A stretch of DNA of 25,149 nucleotides. It comes from a virus. Every line of letters begins with the position of its first letter. Positions within the stretch are counted from its first letter, which is position 1. The translations under genes were made by a program, and so were the position numbers. Below are positions 23,953 to 25,149 of this stretch, in pieces. The notes beneath the pieces were generated by a model that was not told where the DNA came from, ran no database searches, and saw only the letters and a program-made list of their open reading frames with translations. The DNA is taken from positions 1 to 25,149 of IMG/VR virus record IMGVR_UViG_3300010883_000417. One strand, written 5' to 3'.

Positions 23953-23963
23953 CATACTCTATA

Positions 23964-23979
23964 TATAAATATATAAATA
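23964..23979 (+). promoter_or_regulatory. two tandem TATAAATA octamers (candidate late promoters)
   Basis: The plus strand holds TATAAATA at 23964-23971 and again at 23972-23979, perfect matches to the T4 late-promoter box. They stand just upstream of the structured RNA, in a window that encodes a gp55-like factor. The DNA is AT-rich, so chance is possible. Confidence 0.5.
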
Positions 23980-23987
23980 TATATAAA

Positions 23988-24155
23988 CCTATATACCGAA
24001 AAGTTAGCAGCTATAGGAAATTAGACCAGTGCTCCCCGAGACCCTTACGAGCCCTGTAGGGAACGATACCGGCACTGTTATGGCAACATGACGTCAACCT
24101 TACAGCAACCGGCTATCATCCAGACGGAAGTATGAAAACCGTCTTGGTATTTTTT
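23988..24155 (+). ncRNA. candidate structured RNA ending in a terminator
   Basis: In very AT-rich surroundings, 24001-24147 is distinctly richer in G and C and contains no long open frame. Nested complementarity is evident: CCTATA (23988) with TATAGG (24012); CAGTGC (24027) with GCACTG (24072), enclosing CCCTTAC/GTAGGG. As an alternative or additional fold, GATACCGG (24065-24072) pairs with CCGGCTATC (24109-24117) and encloses CTGT/ACAG. A terminator hairpin follows. The CAGTGC and GATACCGG helices overlap and could be two states. It does not match tRNA, tmRNA or any RNA family I can recall. It may be an independent late transcript or a structured 3' end of the upstream operon. Confidence 0.6.
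24120..24155 (+). terminator. rho-independent terminator
   Basis: CCAGACGG (24120-24127), an 11-base loop, CCGTCTTGG (24139-24147, one bulged T), then TATTTTTT. The T-run supports the plus strand only. It ends the plus-strand operon and structured RNA, five bases before the 3' end of the minus-strand gene at 24161. Confidence 0.82.
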
Positions 24156-24364: not shown

Positions 24365-24411
24365 CTAATATGATGCTGATGTTTATAACTCTTAGGTTTT
24401 TTTATTGTGAG

Positions 24412-24459
24412 GAGAAAATTATATATAAATAAAATTAATTAAATATATATAATCCCCTC
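24412..24459 (-). terminator. hairpin ending the cytosine-free transcript
   Basis: In the minus-strand RNA GAGGGGAUUAUAUAUA (24459-24444) pairs with UAUAUAUAAUUUUCUC (24427-24412) over 16 positions, three of them G-U. The plus-strand version would have three A-C mismatches, so the structure belongs to the minus transcript. No T-run follows, so termination is inferred from position, 16 bases past the stop codon. The first cytosines of the transcript lie in its 3' arm. Confidence 0.55.
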
Positions 24460-24474
24460 TCTATTATTATTATA

Positions 24475-24948
24475 TTAATTCACCAACCACAATCTATTAT
24501 TAATTTTAATCTTTTCTTTAATTAACATACCACTTCTTCTACACCAATTTTCAAACCTATCATTATAATCATTCACATTCCACCTTCCACTTCTAAAATT
24601 ATATAATAATCCAAACACACCTTTATTATTAAATTTATTCATATATTCACTCAATAATACCTTTTTATCATCACCAATATATTTCTTTAATTCTTTCTTA
24701 AATAATATATCCATATTATTATTTCCATATAATTTCTTATCTCTTACAACAATCACATCATATTTCTTTCTCTTCATATAATTATAATCCACATCAATAC
24801 TTACCAATTCTCTCACAACTTTATAATCAACCAAATCATAATAATCTTTCCATTCTACATCTTTAAACACAACAATATCATTACCAATTTCATCAAATAA
24901 ATAATTCTTTTTACCAAAATAATTTAATACATCTTTAAAATTTTTCAT
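24475..24948 (-). CDS. 157-residue protein encoded entirely without cytosine
   Basis: The intact frame (MKNFKDVLNYFGKKNYLFDE to the end IKINNRLWLVN) uses no codon containing C. It therefore has no Ala, Thr, Pro, His or Gln, and Ser, Leu and Arg come only from AGT, TTA/TTG and AGA/AGG. It is rich in Lys, Asn, Asp, Tyr and Val. The pattern of alternating strands and helices looks like a folded alpha/beta protein, not low complexity. One Cys and four Trp are present. No family is recognised. A perfect phage promoter lies 50 bases upstream and a hairpin 16 bases downstream, so it appears to be a single-gene transcription unit. Confidence 0.85.
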   Translation of the reverse strand: MKNFKDVLNYFGKKNYLFDEIGNDIVVFKDVEWKDYYDLVDYKVVRELVSIDVDYNYMKRKKYDVIVVRDKKLYGNNNMDILFKKELKKYIGDDKKVLLSEYMNKFNNKGVFGLLYNFRSGRWNVNDYNDRFENWCRRSGMLIKEKIKINNRLWLVN

Positions 24949-24998
24949 ACTTTTTCTTTTTAATTATTAATTATTATTATTACTTTTATTATTACTTA

Positions 24999-25027
24999 AA
25001 TATACAATTTTTATTTCAAATAAACAA
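24999..25027 (-). promoter_or_regulatory. promoter TTG-N20-TATATT inside the cytosine-free island
   Basis: TTG (25027-25025), exactly 20 bases, TATATT (25004-24999) followed by TAAG, minus strand. The TTG begins one base after the stop codon of the upstream gene, as at the primase and HD operons. The spacer also lacks C. Confidence 0.8.
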
Positions 25028-25028
25028 A

Positions 25029-25149
25029 TTATTCTTCAATTAAATAATTTTTATTTTCATCATAAAATACACTATACCCACCATCACCTTCTTTAATATC
25101 TAATTTACAAACAACATCATTTATATTCTTATCATTTCCATCTTCATCA
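25029..25149 (-). CDS. C-terminal end of a second cytosine-free gene (partial)
   Basis: An open minus-strand frame enters from the window edge and reads DEDGNDKNINDVVCKLDIKE, GDGGYSVFYDENKNYLIEE and stop (TAA at 25031-25029). It again uses only C-free codons, and Ala, Thr, Pro, His and Gln are absent from the 39 visible residues. It is acidic and looks like the end of a folded protein (VVCKLDIKE, YSVFYDE). The family cannot be told from this piece. It shows that the composition constraint covers more than one gene. Confidence 0.7.
   Translation of the reverse strand, partial: DEDGNDKNINDVVCKLDIKEGDGGYSVFYDENKNYLIEE

Follow-up and report, generated by a model that had tools for sequence, protein, structure and literature searches.

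An operon, CF1-CF4, shared by a group of flavobacterial viruses, has a predicted transcript that is almost without cytosine. We put the probability that the whole transcript is kept C-free by selection at roughly 0.8, judging from sequence alone. The operon is entered at one end of the window, by which we mean the whole 25,149-nt stretch of DNA that was analysed (IMG/VR record IMGVR_UViG_3300010883_000417); the record is the whole contig, and the contig ends within the C-free island. The promoter studied here, at 24999-25027, is one of the operon's own ordinary switches. Loss of one base of four from a whole transcript, and of five amino acids from its proteins, points to something that acts strongly and specifically on RNA cytidine in infected cells. 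That the operon yields a natural three-letter (A, G, U) mRNA, which could be synthesised or preserved under a block on cytidine in RNA, we regard as about an even bet.

The C-free island in the window

There is no G in the 735 nt of the + strand from 24415 to 25149 (log10 P about -60 under independence); the coding strand there has 144 G and no C. Features are collected in Table 1. With +1 placed at 24992 by rule, the first C of the predicted RNA falls at +579, within the terminal hairpin's 3′ arm. The initial annotation had held that the RNA would lack C up to the hairpin, which is correct by sequence, there being no transcription data. Starts and terminators are predictions throughout, and several contigs have no U tract at the end hairpin. 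The window's hairpin is inferred to be a terminator, although no U tract follows it.

Table 1. Features of the C-free operon in the window and of its fullest form (L006)
Feature	Record	Coordinates	Strand	Remarks
C-free island	Window	24415..25149	-	735 nt, no C on coding strand; runs off contig end
Promoter of CF2 unit	Window	-33 TTG 25025-25027; -7 box TATATTTA 24997-25004	-	Spacer 20; C-free; consensus from PMC6847099
Predicted 5′ UTR of CF2 transcript	Window	24949..24992	-	+1 at 24992 by the -12 to -5 rule; inferred, unmapped
CF2 ORF	Window	24475..24948	-	157 aa, without A, P, T, H or Q residues; kept in eight other contigs, always C-free
CF4-like ORF, C-terminal part	Window	25029..25149	-	Incomplete, C-free; homologues at L006 2650-2940 and L003 2057-2368
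Terminal hairpin	Window	24409..24461	-	First Cs of RNA (from 24414) in 3′ arm; MFE -18.4 kcal/mol, z -3.8
Conserved C-containing non-coding element	Window	23960..24140	-	About 180 nt, downstream of operon; in 9/9 contigs
CF1	L006	1099-1548
CF2	L006	1653-2183
CF3	L006	2289-2633
CF4	L006	2650-2940

The downstream non-coding element recurs at L003 5545-5730, L006 3000-3185 and in the other contigs, and ends in an AU-rich hairpin. Its structure signal is weak, with little covariation, and an Rfam search gave sub-threshold matches only and no family for it.

The promoter of the CF2 unit

The sequence at 24999-25027 on the - strand of the window is TTGTTTATTTGAAATAAAAATTGTATATT. Sigma-A promoters of Bacteroidota, including Flavobacterium, have the consensus TTTG / TAnnTTTG at -33/-7 (PMC6847099), and in flavobacteria the TAnnTTTG box spans -12 to -5 (PMC9723704). 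The island site meets the TTG/TTTG form of the -33 element, with a T before its TTG. In its -7 element, TATATTTA, TA and TTT are present and the last G is missing. The third expectation, a fixed spacing between the two elements, is met by counts in the phage and its relatives. Exact TTG-N20-TATATT occurs eight times in the window (shuffles: mean 0.97, maximum 4); the initial annotation counted eight copies elsewhere, and there are seven, the eighth being the island site itself. Relaxing the second element to TAT[AC]TT raises the count at spacing 20 to 13, where about 1.4 are expected; each other spacing from 16 to 24 has 0 to 2. The shared spacing that the initial annotation noted is confirmed. 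The same peak at spacing 20 is found in the related contigs G002 (26 against 4.5 expected) and G004 (13 against 4.2) and in Flavobacterium phage immuto (63 against 13). Two window matches lie inside ORFs (20540 and 5557) and some have no gene after them; the motif alone therefore does not make a promoter.

A position directly behind the preceding stop codon, also claimed as shared, is found at the island, where the preceding ORF's TAA occupies 25029-25031 and the TTG begins at 25027. It is not general: at the other sites the distance from stop to motif is 0, 1, 5, 17, 45, 61 or 110 nt. The proposal of a host-type promoter is supported by the fit to the Bacteroidota consensus, and the closest isolate infects Flavobacterium. 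The site is thus a predicted Bacteroidota-type sigma-A promoter, of a type common to this phage and its relatives, with its transcription start unmapped.

It probably lies inside a longer C-free operon, cut off by the contig end, and serves as an internal promoter there, because it is itself C-free, as are only 2 of 84 other promoters, and because the homologue of the upstream ORF sits in the L006 operon. In that case the gene order in the window would differ from that in L006.

Homologous operons in other contigs

CF2 homologues were found in eight other IMG/VR contigs (L002, L003, L004, L006, L025, L027, L028 and L029), and in 9/9 contigs CF2 sits within a C-free stretch; these total 7369 nt. 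The C-free lengths include 1079 nt in L003, 1077 nt in L025 and 987 nt in L029; the longest, 1890 nt with four genes, is in L006, whose CF3 is a paralogue of CF1. The 80-kb contig G002, which holds L003, has no other C- or G-free run longer than 102 nt. In L006 the CF4 homologue has a single C; in G002 (L003) it lies outside the operon and has about 4% C, and several upstream genes there have 4-10% C. C-depletion is thus graded by base count, and by inference it seems tied to operon context.

All strictly C-free units come from metagenomic contigs. Had only the window been available, bisulfite- or enzyme-converted DNA or a chimeric contig would have been a natural suspicion, since either could leave a stretch without one base where a contig ends. 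That such an artefact underlies the operon is next to negligible: nine contigs with different IMG sample numbers have it, with normal syntenic flanks and intact, conserved ORFs; both island edges are visible in L003, L006 and L025; and a cultured phage has a nearly C-free probable relative. Bisulfite conversion was rejected because its expectation that all C become T is not met (at codon position 2, T is unchanged and A and G are raised) and the ORFs are intact and conserved. A chimera is ruled out by the independent contigs with intact conserved ORFs. The initial annotation's inference that the island belongs to the phage and is not chimeric is borne out by the homologous C-free islands beside the same phage genes in eight independent contigs.

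Seven of the nine contigs break in the C-free island or its first promoter (the window at its end, 25149; L002, L004, L025, L027, L028 and L029 at their starts), and therefore complete operons are known from few genomes. The breaks suggest strain variation, repeats or sequencing or assembly bias at that place. CF2 DNA is about 93% identical between L002 and L003 (L003 5001-5465, L002 256-720; also L004 1-268) whereas a control gene is 79% identical; the operon may therefore, to go by these identities, have moved recently between phages. Upstream of the island, several small genes form a block (G002 22749-25151, - strand, equal to L003 1-3340) in which the coding strand is C-poor, at 4-10% where about 14% is usual, and some of these genes have C-free transcript starts.

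Collections of phages other than immuto, plasmids and bacterial genomes gave no homologues for the queries tried, only some weak DNA matches that were short and of low complexity. A search with the promoter and 109 C-free bases returned the known contigs only, and a C-free match in a Methanobrevibacter MAG was rejected as a purine-rich tandem repeat, not genes. No precedent for a C-free gene set, and no paper on C-free genes, was found in a non-exhaustive search of the literature and sequence collections.

Edges of the C-free region

The first promoter of the unit is visible in L003, L006 and L025, and the CF2 promoter in L002. In these the last C before the predicted start is at -9, -14, -5 and -13, respectively, and the C-free run from +1 extends for 1071, 1877, 1073 and 551 nt. 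Promoters within units have no C, except the CF2 promoter of L002. At the other end, no C appears in the window, L003 and L025 before the 3′ arm of the hairpin that closes the unit, and the first Cs there are mostly paired. L006 has a single C at 2933, in the second-last codon of CF4, unpaired in the predicted fold, and then none until the 3′ arm of its hairpin. L028 has its first C already in the hairpin's 5′ arm, and the C-free run of L027 stops at the next promoter. Since C occurs up to the outer promoter and is absent from +1 to the hairpin, the C-free region coincides with the predicted transcript.

A constraint over the entire RNA, UTRs included, is also what would be seen if a C-specific ribonuclease of host or phage, possibly a CF protein, cut single-stranded RNA at C, so that C-free mRNA survives and a few Cs are tolerated in duplex; the 3′-end Cs of the window, L003, L006 and L025 are indeed mostly paired in the hairpin. 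The C at L006 2933 does not fit this, nor do the other phage mRNAs, which have C and must survive too, and no nuclease domain was found in CF1-CF4. We consider the ribonuclease rather unlikely, and it is the main rival to the mechanism proposed below, in which CTP is unavailable.

Silent sites

At conserved Phe, Tyr, Asn, Asp and Cys codons of CF2 the third base differed in 0 of 293 comparisons over seven contig pairs. In a control gene, encoding an HD-domain protein, 10-19 of about 50 silent pyrimidine sites differ per pair. At silent A/G sites CF2 and the control gene differ at similar rates. About 1037 of the 6331 nt in six islands are non-coding and likewise C-free. Between close contig pairs about 42% of flank substitutions involve C; within the island none does, the CTCCC of the L002 promoter excepted. 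Frozen silent T/C sites, variable silent A/G sites and C-free UTRs together argue that the purge acts on the transcript. Single Cs are very probably removed at transcript level, UTRs included, by a force on the nucleotide, not on protein or codon; this too is read from sequence comparison and not from RNA.

Three further causes were rejected: one at the codon or tRNA level by the C-free UTRs and intergenic DNA, C-to-U RNA editing since it would leave silent and intergenic Cs unpurged, and general nucleotide conservation by the variable silent purine sites.

Mutation without selection could be strand-specific and bounded by the start site and terminator, as is observed, if transcription-coupled deamination of the exposed non-template strand had bleached all C to T. 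At codon position 2, however, where other small genes have 18% C, A and G have taken the place of the lost C and T is unchanged; among amino acids, N, D, R, Y and E are enriched in the CF proteins, and V and I hardly at all. The comparison is across different gene families, and we take it as moderate evidence that the pattern is not what C-to-T deamination alone would leave. Moreover, C persists at -5 in L025, within the expected open bubble, C would have to be lost thousands of times faster than it is gained, and no match to the cytidine deaminase domain PF00383 was found in seven records. Deamination is decidedly unlikely as the cause.

Selection might instead favour an unstructured or Rho-proof mRNA: without C, RNA can pair only through A-U and G-U, and it is on C-rich RNA that Rho loads. 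Neither benefit needs the removal of each single C over up to 1.9 kb, silent sites included, and we hold this to be very unlikely.

Relation to Flavobacterium phage immuto

The baseplate wedge protein of the phage is 57% identical to that of immuto, and gene order matches, with collinear matches across the related contigs G000-G004. By these comparisons the phage shares structural genes and gene order with an Immutovirus-like flavobacterial phage; genus membership is not claimed. At the syntenic position immuto has gp143, which matches CF1/CF3 (hhalign E 7e-6; pairwise BLASTP E 2e-4) and has an FGSR motif in common with them; a search with gp143 alone does not recover the contigs. It is a probable homologue of CF1/CF3 by sequence. 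Only 5 of the gene's 357 nt are C, where neighbouring genes have about 9-15%, and no C occurs in the first 91 nt counted from +1. No CF2 was found in the phage collection at the protein level. The five Cs of gp143 (immuto 68330-68686) and the one at L006 2933 each precede T, and six are too few to conclude from.

Immuto (NC_055915.1, 18607-37015) is annotated with QueC, QueD, QueE, FolE, QueF and DpdA, and from this annotation its DNA likely contains 7-deazaguanine. A modified guanine in phage DNA might hinder the unmodified host RNA polymerase, so that an operon read first would do without G in its template; the constraint does begin where transcription starts, and in the promoter itself both strands are free to contain G and C. 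Host polymerases nevertheless transcribe phages with modified bases, and QueC, FolE and DpdA had no match in G000-G004. Those contigs do not cover that genome region, and therefore a link through modified template G, which we think unlikely, cannot be excluded.

G002 has at 27711-30882 (- strand) a cluster encoding a radical SAM protein, a thymidylate synthase, a SET-domain protein and a 2OG-Fe(II) oxygenase, adjoined at 31029-33245 (- strand) by a gene for a 738-aa protein with Hint/intein-type domains. The thymidylate-synthase-like gene was rejected as a dCMP hydroxymethylase, as it matches ordinary thymidylate synthase models, and the radical SAM protein was rejected as a viperin, its pVip score being marginal (E 5e-4) and its matches to other radical SAM families better.

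CF proteins and proposed mechanism

CF1-CF4 gave no match over cut-off in Pfam, PHROGs or PADLOC and no confident match to PDB sequences. Comparison of CF1 and CF2 folds with the PDB gave no Foldseek E below 0.001 and VIA Z of at most 7.6; the C-terminus of CF2 is winged-helix-like only at the common-fold level (Z at most 5.6).

We propose that the operon has to be transcribed, probably at an early stage and by the polymerase of the host, at a time when cytidine is unusable in RNA, because CTP has been depleted or replaced by a chain-terminating analogue; the agent is unknown. Each C in the operon RNA would then be harmful. The coding RNA could be made from ATP, GTP and UTP only, CTP being first needed in the terminal hairpin, and the CF products would lift the cytidine block or help to make it. 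Bacterial viperins make ddhCTP, a chain terminator, and therefore an agent of the CTP-analogue type exists (PMC10732462).

Several observations count against this mechanism. The ban on C is not absolute, with one C in the L006 operon and five in the probable homologue gp143; the L002 CF1 transcript, if it reads through, contains CTCCC; all other phage genes have C and the same promoter type; and no nucleotide-related domain was recognised in any CF protein. Without RNA or nucleotide data, the unavailability of CTP remains a possible and tentative explanation of the C-free operon.

A three-letter mRNA, if true, would bring to light a so far unknown conflict, directed at cytidine, in which flavobacteria and their phages are engaged. 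Identifying the agent might lead to an anti-phage defence, a takeover nuclease or a form of competition for nucleotides between phage and host that is new. Immuto, a cultured phage with a probable relative of the CF genes, makes the question testable now.

Comparison with known systems

The promoters of the operon resemble Bacteroidota and Flavobacterium sigma-A promoters in the -33 TTG, the -7 TAnnTTT and one favoured spacing, a type used throughout the phage group; the island copies differ in lacking C and the last G of TAnnTTTG. Bacterial viperins and other nucleotide-directed anti-phage defences would likewise make C in RNA costly, but no viperin or known counter-defence was identified here and the link is inference only. 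Laboratory G-less and C-less transcription cassettes and bisulfite-converted DNA share with the island a long stretch with one base absent from one strand; unlike them, the island is natural, conserved and protein-coding, and its position-2 Cs have given way to A or G, not T. The nearest likeness in a cultured virus is gp143 of immuto (vB_FspM_immuto_2-6A, Immutovirus), which agrees with the operon in syntenic place, FGSR motif and near absence of C, and differs in being a single gene that tolerates a few Cs.
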